Virus record (IMG/VR): IMGVR_UViG_3300032183_000002
Span: 1 to 24,320 of that record
Reading direction: 5' to 3' (one strand)
DNA: 24,320 nucleotides
DNA from: a virus
The notes under the pieces are model-generated. The model saw only the letters and a program-made list of their open reading frames with translations, was not told the origin of the DNA and did no database searches. The position numbers and the translations under genes were made by a program. Positions 4,898 to 21,332 of this stretch are shown piece after piece (the stretch's first letter is position 1; every line of letters begins with the position of its first letter).

Positions 4898-5367
4898 TGG
4901 CAGATTTGGTTTTCAATGTGGCAAAAGGCAAAGTCAATGAATATGTTGCCAGGGTAGATGGTAACGATCCAACTAATAGTGCTCTTATAGTTGTCGCTAT
5001 TGTCAGCACGGACACGGATGCAGCTATTCGTGACGTGGATACTCTGAGCGCTCTTTTGGCTTTGAGTAATACTGCGGAAGCTACTAATACGGGGTATGCC
5101 AGAAAGACATTAACTGATACGGATGTGACGGCTCCGACTCCGGATGATACTAATGACCGCATGGATGCTGACATACCAGACCAAACATGGACTAGCGTAT
5201 CTGCTGGTGATAATTGGACTGATCTTGTTATTTGCTATGACTCCGATACAACTGGGGGCACAGATGCCAACATTGTCCCATTGACTCTGCATGATTTTAG
5301 CGTGACGCCGAATGGCGGAGATATCACCGCGCAAATAAACTCTGCTGGATTCTATCGTGCCGCGTAA
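4897..5367 (+). CDS. Conserved phage structural-type protein, unknown
   Basis: The 156-aa protein begins MADLVFNVAKGKVNEYVARV and contains ATNTGYARKTL, DDTNDRMDADIPDQTW and DLVICYDSDTTGGTDANIVP. From memory this resembles a hypothetical family common in environmental tailed phages near head genes, but no function is known to me. It is acidic, threonine-rich and probably beta. I chose ATG 4897, which overlaps the preceding TGA, over the TTG one codon upstream. The end overlaps the next gene by 11 bases. A virion role is inferred from position. Confidence 0.78.
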   Translation: MADLVFNVAKGKVNEYVARVDGNDPTNSALIVVAIVSTDTDAAIRDVDTLSALLALSNTAEATNTGYARKTLTDTDVTAPTPDDTNDRMDADIPDQTWTSVSAGDNWTDLVICYDSDTTGGTDANIVPLTLHDFSVTPNGGDITAQINSAGFYRAA

Positions 5368-6367: not shown

Positions 6368-7279
6368 ATGGCTGCATGGGATGGCGCAACTGCGCAATCT
6401 ACAACCGAAACCGTTAATTTTCAGCCGGAGCTATGGTCAAACGAGGTAATTGCTTCTTATAAAGCTAACCTTGTCGCAGCTCAGCTGATTACTAACTTCA
6501 ACCACAGAGGACGAAAAGGCGACGCAATCAACATTCCGACTCCGGGGCGCCTAACGGCTTCCGACAAGTCCGAGAATGTTGCGGTCACGCTCAGCACTGA
6601 CCAGGCGACCAACACGCAAATCCTGCTGAACAAGCACAAGTGCGTGGCGATGAACATCGAGGACATTGCCAGTGTGCAGAGCTTGGATAGCATGCGTCAG
6701 CATTACACTGACGATATGGGATATGCCATTGCGACCGTTGTCGATACGGATGTGCTAGGGCTTTACACGGGTCTTACCAACATCGTGATTGGTGGTGATG
6801 GGTCGACAGCTTGGGATAACTCCGGTTCTGGTAATGGTACCGCATTGACCGATGACGGCATCCGCGAAATGATGCAGACACTGGACGATGCGAATGTACC
6901 GCAGGATAACCGGAACATCATTATCCCGCCTGTGACCAAGAAGCAGCTACTGGGGCTGCCTCGCTTCACGGAGCAAGCCTTCGTGGGTGAGGGTGGCGCC
7001 GAGAATAGCATCCGTAATGGACGCATTGGTGATATCTACGGCATGGGCGTGTATGTGAGCACCAATTGTCCGACGATTACCAACTACTCCGGCACGACCA
7101 GCTATCGCGTGGGGTTGCTGACCCATCGCTCTGCCTTTGCCTTGGCGACGCAGCTTGGCATGCGCCTGCAGGTCCAAAAGAAGCTGGAATGGCTTTCGGA
7201 CTTGCTGGTGGCAGATACCATCTACGGTGTGAAGACCTTGCGCACGGATGGCGCAGTTGCCTTCGTAATGCCTGCTTAA
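6368..7279 (+). CDS. Major capsid protein
   Basis: The 303-aa protein follows the scaffold gene, has the length and composition of an HK97-fold coat protein, and contains WSNEVIASYKANLVAAQLIT, FNHRGRKGDAINIPTPG and a long neutral alpha/beta body. It ends with VADTIYGVKTLRTDGAVAF, a terminal pattern common in coat proteins of this type as I recall them. It would form the icosahedral shell. The ribosome binding site is only AGG eight bases upstream, weak for a very abundant protein. The TAA overlaps the next ATG. Confidence comes from context plus general pattern; the exact family is not assigned. Confidence 0.88.
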   Translation: MAAWDGATAQSTTETVNFQPELWSNEVIASYKANLVAAQLITNFNHRGRKGDAINIPTPGRLTASDKSENVAVTLSTDQATNTQILLNKHKCVAMNIEDIASVQSLDSMRQHYTDDMGYAIATVVDTDVLGLYTGLTNIVIGGDGSTAWDNSGSGNGTALTDDGIREMMQTLDDANVPQDNRNIIIPPVTKKQLLGLPRFTEQAFVGEGGAENSIRNGRIGDIYGMGVYVSTNCPTITNYSGTTSYRVGLLTHRSAFALATQLGMRLQVQKKLEWLSDLLVADTIYGVKTLRTDGAVAFVMPA

Positions 7280-8172
7280 TGATCAATATAGAGCCTTGCA
7301 AGCTGGACCCTGTCCCGAGCCTTCGGGCCGGGGTCCTGAGCCCGGACGAAGTGACCAAGCGCATCGCGCCTGGGTTCATCAACTGGAACCCTGCCACTGG
7401 CAGGCCACCTGGGAATGCGCCTGCGCGCTTTGGGTTTCAGCGTTTTCAGGTACGATGGGCAGGTCCAAGGCTCATTAATGAGACGTCCAGGCAGATATTC
7501 AAGAGCCTGGATGAACAAGGTCAGATAAACCCAGTGGTGCTGTGGGCAAGATGGGGGAAGCTGTGGATAGCTTATGGCGGCACACGCGCCATGTGGGCAT
7601 GGAAAAATAAGAGGGAGCTTAAAGCACTTGTAGTAGATTATGACAAGCTCTACGAGCATTGGCGGCTAGTTGAGTATGAGAATATCAAGTCCGAGTATAC
7701 TCAGGCGCCGCTAGGCGTTGTTCCGCTTGAGTTCGGCTGGAAGGATGGAGAGGATTATGTCTTGCTTGATGCCAGAGAATGGACCATGCTCGACGAGTCC
7801 CAGTGGGCCGAATTTCGTATCAGGGAGGATTCGGAGCGTGAGGCTAAAAGCAAGCCAGCTGGAAACGGGCAGAGTGGGCGGTCATCCATACGCGATGGGG
7901 CCCCAGCGCCGACCCTATCTCCCCGAGACTTATTGGTATTACCCAATGCCGGACAAGCTTCTGGCAATGGACATGAAAGCAGCGGGAGAGAAGAGGCGGA
8001 AGATATGGGAGAGCCTAGACCGGGACGGCCAGGTCAACCCGATCTTAGTATGGTCTCGCTGGAACAAGCTCTTGCCTCAGTACGGGCATACGCGCGCGGC
8101 ATGGGCTATATCCAAGAAAAAGATCATATGGGCAATAGTGTGGGACGTGGACAACAGATTTCCGGCGCATAG
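7279..8172 (+). CDS. ParB/sulfiredoxin-like domain protein 1, with extension overlapping the next gene
   Basis: Residues about 72-125 resemble the ParB/Srx-like fold: SLDEQGQINPVVLWARWGKL followed by AYGGTRAMWA, matching the family's GQ..P and G.(R/T)R elements. ParB-like folds include nucleases, CTPases and kinases, so the reaction cannot be stated. ATG 7279 overlaps the capsid TAA. The domain reads naturally to about residue 186; the remaining 111 residues overlap gene 7838-8290 in another frame by 335 bases and look low-complexity (Gly/Ser/Pro/Glu-rich). The extension may be a real overprinted tail, or the original stop may have been lost. In the next frame a TGA at 7839-7841 overlaps the GTG start of the second gene. 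Confidence 0.68.
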   Translation: MINIEPCKLDPVPSLRAGVLSPDEVTKRIAPGFINWNPATGRPPGNAPARFGFQRFQVRWAGPRLINETSRQIFKSLDEQGQINPVVLWARWGKLWIAYGGTRAMWAWKNKRELKALVVDYDKLYEHWRLVEYENIKSEYTQAPLGVVPLEFGWKDGEDYVLLDAREWTMLDESQWAEFRIREDSEREAKSKPAGNGQSGRSSIRDGAPAPTLSPRDLLVLPNAGQASGNGHESSGREEAEDMGEPRPGRPGQPDLSMVSLEQALASVRAYARGMGYIQEKDHMGNSVGRGQQISGA

Positions 8173-8290
8173 AGAATTAACGATAGATGAGGCTAGAGGA
8201 CGATGGCGGCAACCACCGATAGGATGCATCCCGAGGGGTCTGCTATGGCACGAGATGGGAGGAGATCTCGTACTTGGGATGCGGATTTAA
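7838..8290 (+). CDS. ParB/sulfiredoxin-like domain protein 2 (diverged paralogue of gene at 7279)
   Basis: The 150-aa product repeats the architecture of its neighbour in another frame: ESLDRDGQVNPILVWSRWNK then QYGHTRAAWA, and later RQPPIGCIPRGLLW parallels TQAPLGVVPLEFGW in gene 1. This is an ancient tandem duplication, strongly diverged. GTG 7838 is chosen because AGGGAGGA lies at 7822-7829, eight bases upstream; the frame is also open back to a TTG at 7718. It overlaps the methyltransferase gene by 46 bases. Its role is unknown; with gene 1 and the methyltransferase it forms a three-gene cassette between capsid and tail genes. Alternatively the two domains are made as one protein by a +1 frameshift. 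Confidence 0.7.
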   Translation: MRLKASQLETGRVGGHPYAMGPQRRPYLPETYWYYPMPDKLLAMDMKAAGEKRRKIWESLDRDGQVNPILVWSRWNKLLPQYGHTRAAWAISKKKIIWAIVWDVDNRFPAHRELTIDEARGRWRQPPIGCIPRGLLWHEMGGDLVLGMRI

Positions 8291-8814
8291 TCAGCAGCTA
8301 CTACAAGCGTCTGCTCAGAGAAGACCACGCAGCCAATCCTAATTGGGGCACTACCGGCAAGCGATATGCGAACTTCATACATCCTTTATACCATATGCAT
8401 TCTTGCCTTAATATTTTGGACTATGGCTGTGGGAAGGCTACCCTTAGTCAATCTCTAGGGTTGCCTGTGCATGGCTATGACCCGGGCATCCCGGAGTTCA
8501 GCGAGCAGCCTACTCCGCATGATATGGTCGTGAGCACCGATGTCCTGGAGCATGTTCAGCCTGAGAGAGTAGACGCAGTGCTAAAGCATATCCATAGCTT
8601 GACTCGGAAGGTTGGCTTTCATGCCATAGCCCTGACCAAGGCAGCGCATAAGCTGCCTAATGGCAAGAATGCCCATCTTACGGTCAGGCGGGCAGATTGG
8701 TGGACAAAGAAGTTCGAGGCAGCGAAGTTCGATTATGCAGAAGTCTTCCTGCCATGCAATGCGCCTAGGTTCAGAGAGACAGTCCTAACCATAGCAGTAT
8801 GGCCAAATGTCTGA
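8245..8814 (+). CDS. Class I SAM-dependent methyltransferase
   Basis: The 189-aa protein has SAM-binding motif I in ILDYGCGKATLSQSLGLPVH and an acidic motif after it (GYDPGIP), followed by MVVSTDVLEHVQPERVDAV, typical of Methyltransf_11/25-type small-molecule or peptide methyltransferases. No DNA methylase catalytic tetrad (DPPY or NPPY) is present, so DNA is not the obvious substrate. I chose ATG 8245, with GAGGGG at 8233-8238 six bases upstream; in-frame ATGs at 8203 and 8224 have worse sites and longer overlaps. It is coupled to the ParB-like genes and overlaps the tail adaptor gene by eight bases. Substrate unknown. Confidence 0.82.
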   Translation: MARDGRRSRTWDADLISSYYKRLLREDHAANPNWGTTGKRYANFIHPLYHMHSCLNILDYGCGKATLSQSLGLPVHGYDPGIPEFSEQPTPHDMVVSTDVLEHVQPERVDAVLKHIHSLTRKVGFHAIALTKAAHKLPNGKNAHLTVRRADWWTKKFEAAKFDYAEVFLPCNAPRFRETVLTIAVWPNV

Positions 8815-14656: not shown

Positions 14657-14998
14657 ATGGTTACAGATAGTTCATCTAAGCAGGATCAAATCTGGATGTG
14701 GCTGGAGCGCTCAGCGTTGGCCGCGATTGGCTTCCTCTCGGCCATGATGTATGTGGATGTCCGCGAGCTCAGGATAGGTCAAGCCGTGTCCGAGGAACGC
14801 GTCATGCATATAGAGGAGCAGGTTACCCGCATGCAGCTGCAGGCCGTGCCCGAGGAACGCGTCATGCATATAGAGGAGCAGGTTAACCGCATGCAGCTGC
14901 AGTTCGAAGCCCACTTGCGGGAACCATGGCATACCCGTGCTGGACATGAGATCGAGACGCTGAAGCGCAACTTCAAGATGCCTCCTGACTTGCCTTGA
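14657..14998 (+). CDS. Small membrane-anchored coiled-coil protein with 20-aa tandem repeat
   Basis: The 113-aa product has one probable membrane segment (about 14-34, MWLERSALAAIGFLSAMMYV) and a C-terminal coiled coil. Residues 42-61 and 62-81 are near-identical 20-aa repeats starting QAVxEERVMHIEEQV and differing only at Ser/Pro and Thr/Asn. One membrane helix plus a coil is the plan of inner-membrane spanins, and it also occurs in some holin-like proteins, but neither is proven. No good Shine-Dalgarno precedes ATG 14657. It is the last rightward gene; its 3' end overlaps the convergent remnant at 14973-15170. Confidence 0.66.
   Translation: MVTDSSSKQDQIWMWLERSALAAIGFLSAMMYVDVRELRIGQAVSEERVMHIEEQVTRMQLQAVPEERVMHIEEQVNRMQLQFEAHLREPWHTRAGHEIETLKRNFKMPPDLP
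14783..14902 (+). repeat. Two 60-bp direct tandem repeats in the coiled-coil gene
   Basis: Unit one is 14783-14842 and unit two is 14843-14902. They differ at only two bases (T/C at 14789/14849 and C/A at 14826/14886), which suggests a recent duplication. Both substitutions change an amino acid (Ser/Pro and Thr/Asn). The period is 20 codons, one residue short of three heptads, so the second copy shifts the coiled-coil register. Confidence 0.93.
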
Positions 14999-16014: not shown

Positions 16015-16111
16015 TGTCTACTCGCTTTGGAACCAGCCTTGCATCCTCAGCCCTCTGCTTCCATTTAAGCTGTTCTAGCCTCCATTGCTCCGGTGTCTTT
16101 AGCTTGCTCAT
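15977..16111 (-). CDS. Very small Lys/Arg-rich protein, tentative
   Basis: The frame encodes 44 aa, MSKLKTPEQWRLEQLKWKQR and then AEDARLVPKRVDNAR with a KDKKPR end. GGAG lies seven bases before the ATG, so translation is plausible. It overlaps the end of the resolvase gene by 47 bases and the start of the 63-aa gene by 38 bases, long for real overlaps but seen repeatedly in this operon. Composition (basic, helical) looks non-random. It is too small for family assignment. Confidence 0.42.
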   Translation of the reverse strand: MSKLKTPEQWRLEQLKWKQRAEDARLVPKRVDNARAREKDKKPR

Positions 16112-16574
16112 TGCCGTACTCCGCAATCAATACTGCATCCGCAATACCAACGCTGTCTTTGGTCTTCAGCAGCTCCAGTATCTCCGGATGCTCTGTTCTA
16201 ACCTTGAGTCTGGACGCATCCTTGTCCTGCCGTAGCAGCCCAGCCCTGCGCTTCCATACGGTCGGCAGCACCCAGTACAAAGGAATGTTGAATGCTGCAG
16301 CGACGCCTTCTATCACCCCTACGCCATGCCCGAATGAGAACATGCTGGCAACACCTTGGTTCGGCCTTGCGGCGACTCTCTCTAGATAGATAGGGCACAT
16401 TCCGTATCTTGTCCACTTATACAGGATATGAGAAAGCTCGGCGCCATCTACTTGGTTGCCGGCTCTTCCATATGCCCTGGATATGACAGGCATTGGCTCG
16501 CACGCACGGACTCTGCCTTTATCATCCAGCAGTGCTAAGCCACCCTTTAGTCCTGGGTCAATTCCGATTCTCAA
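16065..16574 (-). CDS. RuvC-like Holliday junction resolvase
   Basis: The 169-aa product is an RNase H-fold resolvase that cuts branched DNA made during recombination and replication before packaging. The acidic active-site set appears complete: Asp6 in IGIDPGLKGGLALL, Glu65 in PIYLERV, and Asp140/Asp146 in KDSVGIADAVLIAEYG. The motif FSFGHGVGVIEGV (about 80-92) and PTVWK (about 104-108) are typical of phage RuvC-type enzymes. It starts at TTG with AGGAGGG seven bases upstream, and TTGA overlaps the stop of the preceding gene. Length matches bacterial RuvC (about 170 aa). Confidence 0.9.
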   Translation of the reverse strand: MRIGIDPGLKGGLALLDDKGRVRACEPMPVISRAYGRAGNQVDGAELSHILYKWTRYGMCPIYLERVAARPNQGVASMFSFGHGVGVIEGVAAAFNIPLYWVLPTVWKRRAGLLRQDKDASRLKVRTEHPEILELLKTKDSVGIADAVLIAEYGNEQAKDTGAMEARTA

Positions 16575-20118: not shown

Positions 20119-20448
20119 TCAAAATGGAATATCATCATCAGGATCTGAATTCAGCTCCTGCTGTCTTTGCGGCATGTTATAAGGCGCTGATTCACGCTTC
20201 TTATTCAAGCTCTTGTCAATCCTGGCGCCGCACATTGGGCAAACGTCATCTTTGACCCTTGGCAAGCGCTCAACACGATAGATAGCCAACCCCCCATCAT
20301 CGGCCTTGAACACCCTGTGCTTTACCACGGCCCGATAGCTAAAGTTCTTGGCCTCTACCGTCACTACCTCGCCTTCTTCCAGATCTTCCGCAGGACGAAC
20401 ACCAATACCCCAGGTATCGTCCTTCATCTTGTAAGGGTTAATTGCCAT
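20119..20448 (-). CDS. Small protein with CxxC and an SSB-type C-terminal DDDIPF tip
   Basis: The 109-aa product has a beta-rich N-terminal half (EEGEVVTVEAKNFSYRAVVK, LAIYRVERLPR), one CPMCG knuckle (about 70-74) and a disordered linker ending DPDDDIPF. In E. coli SSB the last six residues are also DDDIPF, and they recruit SSB partners. A single-stranded-DNA-binding or SSB-mimic role is therefore plausible, though no OB-fold is demonstrated. The first 17 residues (MAINPYKMKDDTWGIGV) are repeated in the Gly-Tyr protein upstream. GAGG is seven bases before ATG. Confidence 0.75.
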   Translation of the reverse strand: MAINPYKMKDDTWGIGVRPAEDLEEGEVVTVEAKNFSYRAVVKHRVFKADDGGLAIYRVERLPRVKDDVCPMCGARIDKSLNKKRESAPYNMPQRQQELNSDPDDDIPF

Positions 20449-20742
20449 TTAACGTCCTCTTTATTCGCAGGAACCGTTGACAGAGCCGTAGCCATAGCCG
20501 TCTCCATAGCCGTAGCCGAATCCAGAGATGTAGCCGGAGCCAAAGCCGAAGCCGTAGCCAAAACCGTCGCCATCGCCAAAGCCGGAGCTGTAACCGTCCC
20601 CGCAGCCGTTGCCGTAACCGCCACCGTAGCCGTCGCCGTAGCCGTCGCCGTAGCCGAATCCAGAGATGTAGTCGGAGCCGGCGCCGTCGCTGACACCAAT
20701 ACCCCAGGTATCGTCTTTCATCTTGTAGGGGTTAATTCTCAT
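20399..20742 (-). repeat. Near-identical 50-bp direct repeats covering two gene starts
   Basis: Plus-strand 20399-20448 and 20693-20742, 294 bases apart, share the sequence encoding the first 17 residues of both genes (INPYKMKDDTWGIGV). They differ at about five bases, and only the second residue of the product changes. The interval between copies contains the Gly-Tyr repeat array of the upstream gene. Confidence 0.85.
20461..20742 (-). CDS. Gly-Tyr-Phe-rich repeat protein with leader copied from the SSB-tail gene
   Basis: The 93-aa product opens MRINPYKMKDDTWGIGV, matching the start of the next gene, then switches to Gly-aromatic repeats such as GYGDGYGDGYGGGYGNG and GFGYGFGFGSGYISGFGYG. 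The unit S(D/G)YISGFGYG occurs twice. The start is chosen by the leader match and a GAGGG site eight bases upstream. No fold is recognised. Such Gly/aromatic composition is known from low-complexity, fibre- or condensate-forming proteins, so self-association is possible, but no function is established. The apparent origin is fusion of a duplicated 5' end to a repeat array. Confidence 0.7.
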   Translation of the reverse strand: MRINPYKMKDDTWGIGVSDGAGSDYISGFGYGDGYGDGYGGGYGNGCGDGYSSGFGDGDGFGYGFGFGSGYISGFGYGYGDGYGYGSVNGSCE

Positions 20743-20985
20743 GTAATCTGCCCTCTATTCCCTAACCGTAGCCGTAACCGGAGCCGTAACCGGAACCGGA
20801 GCCGTAACCGGAACCGTAGCCGTAACCGGAGCCGTAGCCGTAACCGGAGCCGTAACCGGAACCGTAGCCGTAACCGGAGCCGTCGCCGTAGCCGGAGCCG
20901 GAGCCGGAGCCGTCGCCGTAGATGGAGCCGTCGCCATAGCCGTAGCCGTCGCCGTCGCCGGAGCCGTAACCGGAACCGTAGCCGA
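20471..20985 (-). repeat. Gly-Tyr coding microsatellite-like repeat region
   Basis: On the plus strand this interval is dominated by imperfect 6-base units (CCGTAG, CCGTAA, CCGGAG, CCGTCG), interrupted by 20693-20761, which hold the copied leader and an intergenic bit. Units are arranged as mixed combinations rather than one pure tandem array. A longer internal copy containing TCCAGAGATGTAG occurs at about 20520 and about 20658. Confidence 0.85.
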
Positions 20986-20995
20986 TCTTATCCAT
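20762..20995 (-). CDS. Almost pure Gly/Tyr/Ser/Asp repeat protein
   Basis: The 77-aa product is MDKI followed by residues that are all Gly, Tyr, Ser or Asp except one Ile. GYGSGYG and GDGDGYGYG motifs alternate, with Gly at nearly every second position. ATG 20995 overlaps the end of the DUF6948-like gene by eight bases, which suggests coupling because the Shine-Dalgarno is poor. It and the 93-aa gene form a pair in the operon. Repeats with a 6-base core (GGYTAYGG-like) readily expand or contract, so length may vary between relatives. Function unknown. Confidence 0.65.
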   Translation of the reverse strand: MDKIGYGSGYGSGDGDGYGYGDGSIYGDGSGSGSGYGDGSGYGYGSGYGSGYGYGSGYGYGSGYGSGSGYGSGYGYG

Positions 20996-21332
20996 TGCTA
21001 GGGCAGCTCTGGATATTTCTCACAGCAACCTCCTTGCAAGAAATAATCTCGCATACTTCAGTGAGTGTCACGTCAACAGGCTCTCCAACCCTGCTTTTAT
21101 CATGTGCGAGCCCATGATTCGCAACGCCAGATAGCCATTTACCACTGGCCGGATACCATCGCCAAAGCCATCTGGAATTCTCCAACGCAACGACTTGCCC
21201 TTGTTGCTCCACAAGCCTGCCAGCATGCACGCCGGCTTGTGTGCAACGGCAAATCACGTATTGACCTACCTTGGAGATCTTGTTCTCCATCGGCGCCAAT
21301 TGCTCTTTATCGGAATCGTAATACGCTCGCAT
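20988..21332 (-). CDS. DUF6948-like phage protein
   Basis: The 114-aa product has VGQYVICRCTQAGVHAGRLV, then EQQGQVVALENSRWLWRWYP, SGVANHG and LTEVCEIISCKEVAVRNIQS. This order matches my recollection of the DUF6948 family, where Y-V-I-V-R-(T/C)-x-S-A-G-V is followed by an Arg-Trp segment and a C-terminal LTEAIEI. Function is unknown in the family. GGAG about nine bases before ATG 21332 is a reasonable site. The stop overlaps the start of the first Gly-Tyr gene. Confidence 0.78.
   Translation of the reverse strand: MRAYYDSDKEQLAPMENKISKVGQYVICRCTQAGVHAGRLVEQQGQVVALENSRWLWRWYPASGKWLSGVANHGLAHDKSRVGEPVDVTLTEVCEIISCKEVAVRNIQSCPSNG

Follow-up and report, generated by a model that had tools for sequence, protein, structure and literature searches.

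A conserved two-gene phage module that pairs the DUF6948 protein, predicted to be Sm-like, with a Gly-X repeat protein

Genes for Gly-X proteins, in which glycine alternates with a small set of other residues, form together with genes of the DUF6948 family a conserved, widespread and hitherto undescribed two-gene phage module. The reading that we favor, with a probability of roughly 45%, is that of a split Hfq-like module, in which an Sm-like core and a separate, acidic and disordered Gly-X tail would act on nucleic acid, possibly within a condensate. Low-complexity proteins of phages are usually dismissed as noise, and here one kind of them is tied almost without exception to DUF6948, so that two unknowns become one testable module. 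A literature search found no paper mentioning DUF6948 and none on Gly-Tyr repeat proteins of phages, and the paper on barbaviruses makes no mention of the Gly-X protein or of the module.

The Gly-X genes of the window

The stretch of DNA that was analysed, called the window here, is a virus record of 24.3 kb. It contains two adjacent Gly-X genes, GX1 and GX2, on the minus strand, and their coordinates, strands and lengths are exactly those claimed in the original prediction that was made from this DNA. The features of the region are as follows:

20988-21332, minus strand: DUF6948 gene, the first gene of the module, encoding 114 aa with a predicted Sm/LSm-like barrel (Pfam PF22253, AlphaFold2, Foldseek, VIA-align)
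20988-20995, minus strand: overlap of 8 nt between the 3′ end of the DUF6948 gene and the start of GX1 (from the open reading frames; 116 of 138 homologous pairs overlap)
20762-20995, minus strand: GX1, a Gly-X repeat protein of 77 aa, the second gene of the module (open reading frame; frame and position relative to DUF6948 are the same in relatives)
20764-20984, minus strand: array based on GGC-NNY hexamers that encodes GX1 (Tandem Repeats Finder score 288, codon tests)
20461-20742, minus strand: GX2, a second Gly-X gene of 93 aa, apparently a tandem duplicate with a borrowed leader (open reading frame, DNA alignment)
20692-20742, minus strand: first 17 codons of GX2, apparently taken over from the 5′ end of the SSB-tail gene (the two start regions aligned as DNA)
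20119-20448, minus strand: SSB-tail gene, encoding a 109-aa protein with a zinc-ribbon-like CxxC motif and the SSB-type C-terminus DDDIPF, the putative donor of the GX2 leader (sequence)

Both Gly-X proteins have mainly Tyr, Ser, Asp or Phe as X, with Asn also among these residues, and past residue 4 the only residue of GX1 other than G, Y, S or D is a single Ile, which is the one exception that had been counted. The repeats have a period of 6 or 48 according to Tandem Repeats Finder, which also scored 20484-20656 (101). Searches with the Gly-X protein gave sub-threshold low-complexity matches only in Pfam (e.g., TrAA12), nothing convincing in PHROGs and no match in PADLOC or NCBIfam.

The suggested kinship in makeup with self-associating low-complexity proteins is borne out, in that the proteins are rich in Gly, Tyr, Ser and Asn and are predicted to be disordered, and the earlier idea of a condensate made by them is plausible. 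The low-complexity domains of FUS and the hnRNP proteins combine Gly with Tyr, Ser, Asn, Asp and Phe in a sticker-and-spacer manner; unlike these, the Gly-X proteins show a strict two-residue alternation, contain almost no Arg or Gln, and belong to viruses of bacteria.

Linkage of Gly-X genes to DUF6948

When the array region was compared by blastn with 50,697 phage records, 135 of them matched, many more than chance would give; among the matches listed, all run through the array, and the same Gly-X frame was present in every record inspected. The isolates that were opened (Pectobacterium, Rhodobacter, Manatee Spring, Eggerthella and Iodobacter phages, and two Rheinheimera phages) have the array just 3′ of a small gene. 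Searches by tblastn with two types of the partner returned 13 and 120 phage records (133), nearly the same phages as the 135 with the array DNA, and the alignments of these window-type and barbavirus-type partners belong to one family (profile-profile probability 99.7).

The linkage was tested in both directions. For the forward test, the two partner alignments yielded 428 and 221 relatives in viral contigs; 80 loci were kept for each, giving 163 with three phage records, and a script looked for a Gly-X array at most 1.5 kb downstream of DUF6948 on the same strand, which it found in 139 of the 163. For nine of the other 24, the contig stops less than 200 bp from the match, and one (L163) starts at a contig edge with its upstream side cut off, its close relative L164 having the array upstream. 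In six more the array lies upstream of DUF6948, at a distance of about 500 bp, and seven were seen by eye to contain a short, degenerate or domain-fused array (L021, L073, L138, L150, L153, L155 and L172), which leaves L022 as the sole evaluable locus lacking a Gly-X gene. The gene is present, then, at 152 of 153 evaluable loci (145 by script, seven by eye). The reverse test used a DNA pattern of five GGN-KAY units, blind to DUF6948, and retrieved 82 arrays: DUF6948 lies within 2 kb of 39 of the 41 stand-alone Gly-X genes for which at least 500 bp of upstream sequence were available, and near 10 of 27 remaining arrays, which are Gly-Asp linkers in large proteins or are fused or atypical.

The script also found the array at 26 of 30 DUF6948 loci in bacterial genomes (one more ends at a contig edge), in Sphingomonas, Neisseria, Nitrosomonas, Chlorobiaceae, Bacteroidota and Gracilibacteria. 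For the Gracilibacteria locus, an alternative code with TGA read as Gly was considered and rejected, the array being free of TGA. A role of DUF6948 as a general bacterial gene was likewise rejected: it occurs in one of 791 sampled genomes (excluding two centre genomes that had been chosen for carrying it) and is therefore mainly a phage gene. The module spans phages of Proteobacteria, Bacteroidota, Chlorobi, Actinobacteria and candidate phyla.

The Gly-X gene mostly lies directly 3′ of DUF6948, and in the overlapping pairs its start is inside the end of the DUF6948 gene, the commonest overlaps being 17, 16 and 13 nt; we infer that the two genes are translationally coupled. Within groups, the Gly-X leaders are conserved (MSKLNKP, METxLTLDG, MGG).

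The DUF6948 protein and its predicted fold

The upstream gene of the window is a member of Pfam PF22253 (E 1.2e-23, 83.5 bits against a cut-off of 27 bits); for its Gly-X partner, the libraries searched contain no dedicated family. AlphaFold2, applied to the window protein together with 76 relatives, predicted a five-stranded barrel of the Sm/LSm type with a pLDDT of 91.3. The PDB matches listed by Foldseek for this model are Sm/LSm proteins or LSm subunits of larger complexes, the best E among them being 0.008 and none below 0.001; rank 2 is held by 3by7, a protein of Sm-like fold that has no sequence match to DUF6948 and that is presumably of phage origin. With VIA-align the rows listed are all Sm/LSm, and the best has a Z of 8.3 (rmsd 2.3 over 64 residues), where a Z of about 8 marks the border of a common arrangement. 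One DUF6948 relative gave a weak SM-ATX match (E 0.052). Since the DUF6948 profile found no sequence match at E<=1 among solved PDB chains, its membership of the Sm proteins rests on the predicted fold, and DUF6948 is best described as having a predicted Sm/LSm-like fold, of the RNA-binding type. Conserved Arg and Trp residues occupy positions 29, 54, 55 and 59, and the median net charge is 0, i.e., the protein is not basic overall.

Composition, parity and turnover of the arrays

In 137 distinct arrays (4,024 units) X is Tyr in 35%, Asp in 29%, Ser in 23%, Asn in 7% and Phe in 2%, with His and Cys, both one step from a Tyr codon, at less than 1% each. Ser is encoded by both TCY and AGY codons. 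The Gly positions are held by Gly in 97.15% of cases, Ser and Asp, the commonest X after Tyr, being seldom accepted there, and 11 parity shifts were counted in 8,710 residues, all within seven of the 137 arrays. The median array is 79 aa long, the net charge is -0.13 per residue, and 113 of 135 arrays have neither Lys nor Arg, so that tryptic proteomics would miss the Gly-X proteins.

A comparison of repeat length in related phages, as had been proposed, was made for Pectobacterium phages, the DUF6948 DNA of which is identical or 99.7% identical: their Gly-X proteins have 67, 73 and 85 aa and differ in the order of the units, and the leader and the composition are constant. Array sequence and length thus change quickly, and frame, parity and composition stay, which allows one to ask how selection holds composition and parity amid free change of sequence and length. 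These patterns indicate that selection acts on the Gly-X protein. The original prediction had named frequent frameshifts and chance low-complexity DNA as dangers to its reading; no frameshift decay was seen, the 137 arrays all being open, and the notion of neutral DNA made by slippage and annotated by accident, which would fit the hexamer periodicity and the quick length change between near-identical phages, is extremely improbable in view of the frame, leader, residue set, Gly positions and one-family linkage that are kept across unrelated phages.

The strict alternation bears on another explanation, namely that (Gly-X)n assembles by itself in the infected cell, into a gel, fibres or sheets of the silk type, and that DUF6948 serves to chaperone or anchor it. 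Composition alone would not demand alternation, and the arrays share strict Gly alternation with silk fibroin-type (GX)n. Unlike the latter, however, they lack Ala, are rich in Asp and acidic, and are short, whole-hexamer slippage would likewise keep the parity, and AlphaFold2, although weak on such repeats, finds no structure in them. Assembly of this kind was judged unlikely.

Codon bias of the Gly positions

GGC makes up 74-91% of the Gly codons of the arrays irrespective of genome GC, and 16-54% of those in other genes; the third base of the X codons, by contrast, tracks genome GC. The bias is absent from Gly-rich arrays that lack DUF6948 (GGC 24%). Two causes were considered and rejected. 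If out-of-frame stops were being avoided, the bias should depend on the next base in a particular way, which it does not, and mRNA structure showed no consistent effect and left the bias unaccounted for. With the bias unexplained, a role at the level of nucleic acid alongside that of the protein is possible.

Taken further, the codon bias could mean that the GGC-NNY array itself is what is bound, as mRNA or DNA, e.g., by the Sm-like protein for autoregulation, the peptide being secondary. The GGC excess, its absence where DUF6948 is lacking and the third base of the X codons, which follows genome GC, would all agree with this. However, X is confined to Y, D, S, N and F, with His and Cys rare, both kinds of Ser codon are used, leaders, start position and frame are kept, and mRNA structure did not account for the bias; such an element, with the peptide of lesser importance, has in our judgement only a slim chance of being the explanation.

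Origin of the second Gly-X gene

Codons 1-17 of GX2 (MRINPYKMKDDTWGIGV) and the ribosome-binding region are almost identical in DNA to the beginning of the SSB-tail gene, and the DNA immediately 5′ of the GX2 start resembles that 5′ of the SSB-tail gene. GX1 and GX2 therefore seem to have arisen by tandem duplication and not independently of each other. Judged from the alignment, the simplest account would be a duplication that reached from the interior of the array to codon 17 of the SSB-tail gene and that joined the Gly-X chain in frame to the leader of that gene; the new N-terminus may redirect the GX2 copy. The pairing of Gly-X genes on which the original prediction had dwelt is thus real for the window, but the pair appears to be a local duplication, most phages having a single Gly-X gene.

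The SSB-tail gene fared similarly. It does stand next to the pair and, as had been described, has an SSB-type tail, with the ending DDDIPF, but the constant partner is the overlapping DUF6948 gene upstream. The SSB-tail protein matched no family above cut-off in Pfam or NCBIfam, and a scan of viral contigs gave zero relatives, so that it was rejected as a conserved partner and regarded as local. An SSB gene is merely one among several recombination genes near the module, whereas the link to DUF6948 is nearly universal.

Genomic setting

Placement in an early replication and recombination region, which had been predicted as well, was found in the module loci, the neighbours of which include genes for Erf, RecT, a RecE/YqaJ exonuclease, SSB, RusA and HNH proteins. 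This setting would suit a counter-defence or decoy function, in which the two proteins inhibit a host defence or nuclease directed against early phage DNA and the acidic, disordered chain mimics nucleic acid, and the fast turnover of the arrays would suit it also. The same composition in phages of very distant hosts argues, however, against a single host target, and no PADLOC model was matched, in a library of defence rather than counter-defence proteins; we consider this function improbable. A structural role of the Gly-X protein, in the virion or elsewhere, is far less probable still. Some large phage proteins do contain Gly-rich stretches (e.g., L207, L251 and L178), but the early/recombination location speaks against such a role, and mass spectrometry of virions of the Eggerthella phage PMBT5 identified six virion proteins, the Gly-X protein gp38 not being among them, at a low titre and with an array to which trypsin is blind (PMC9394477).

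Fusions, tandem families and variants

One open frame (L199:4963-5622) joins DUF6948 and Gly-X in a natural fusion, which was found on a single metagenomic contig and might be an artefact of assembly or of an indel. AlphaFold2 gave its Gly-X half a pLDDT of 41-54 and no secondary structure. In PHROG 18306 the 3′ part matches DUF6948 and the middle part matches Gly-X proteins, which hints at further fusions of the two.

Tandem Gly-X genes occur elsewhere: five in L176, several in L074 and two in L299. Those of L176 (810-1985) have separate starts and all carry the leader MNIKIS, and their vicinity showed no DUF6948; the family of L074 (5349-7331) also has separate starts. In Bacteroidota-type phages (L186:10363-10935, L225:6982-7785, L244:1821-2510, L322:5267-5941 and L172) the array makes up the N-terminus of a larger protein, and these proteins share a C-terminal domain with the motifs YIDDIP, HGET and FxWHxxLTGSC, for which no Pfam family was found (L186, L225, L244, L322). 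L022 has a different repeat (GNHYGDHVGD-like, of the GNHYGDH type) 3′ of DUF6948, from about position 5315.

Proposed mechanism and known systems

The split Hfq-like module is proposed on the basis of the linkage, the overlapping starts, the L199 fusion, the predicted fold, the disorder and acidity of the Gly-X chain, the conserved Arg and Trp residues, the setting and the precedent of Hfq; the module, its linkage, fold prediction, coding constraint, predicted disorder and acidity, fusion and setting were all computed. In outline, the Sm-like DUF6948 protein would bind nucleic acid, probably as a ring, and the Gly-X protein, a disordered, acidic and Tyr-rich polymer, would dock on it in trans. 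Once docked, it might tune the binding of the nucleic acid or displace it, and in early replication and recombination the complexes could collect on the RNA or ssDNA of the phage as a condensate. Counting against the split-Hfq view are the lack of a basic character in DUF6948, the borderline Z, the missing match to solved chains and the possibility that the fusion is an artefact; a simple disordered tail, moreover, would not require strict Gly parity or the GGC bias. A more far-reaching version, which we regard as rather doubtful, holds that a ring of the phage Sm-like protein and the quickly evolving Gly-X polymer, made as a separate coupled protein, build an RNA-protein or ssDNA-protein condensate that serves early replication and recombination, where the GGC constraint may let the Sm-like protein read the message of its partner as well.

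The Hfq of A. baumannii consists of an Sm core followed by 12 GGFGGQ repeats and an acidic tip, and the number of repeats matters for its function (PMC11617691); in E. coli Hfq the acidic C-terminal domain mimics nucleic acid (PMC5606850). Hfq tails have also been reported, in work cited in the former paper (PMC11617691), to drive phase-separated bodies. Like the A. baumannii protein, the module combines an Sm core, here predicted, with a long disordered Gly/aromatic repeat and acidic residues. Unlike that single polypeptide, it is made of two overlapping genes in the window and in nearly all relatives, L199 being the exception; its repeat is GX instead of GGFGGQ, it is phage-borne, and DUF6948 has no detectable similarity to solved Sm proteins. 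With E. coli Hfq it shares an acidic disordered chain beside an Sm core (again predicted), but there the tip alone is acidic and acts in cis, whereas the Asp residues of the module are spread along the chain, which would act in trans. Whether phages assemble ribonucleoprotein bodies from Sm and low-complexity proteins is a question for which the module offers a simple test system.

Other observations in the window

Several other features of the window were recorded. An ORF at 14657-14998 contains a 60-bp tandem duplication (14783-14902, plus strand; 96% match), by which 20 residues are repeated. In the early operon, the ORF at 16065-16574 (minus strand), which starts with MRIGIDPGLKGGLALL, looks from its sequence like a RuvC-type resolvase. 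Judging by sequence, just 3′ of the major head protein lies an ORF that resembles ParB/sulfiredoxin (7066-8172, plus strand), and a methyltransferase-like ORF (8203-8814, plus strand) likewise comes after that protein.
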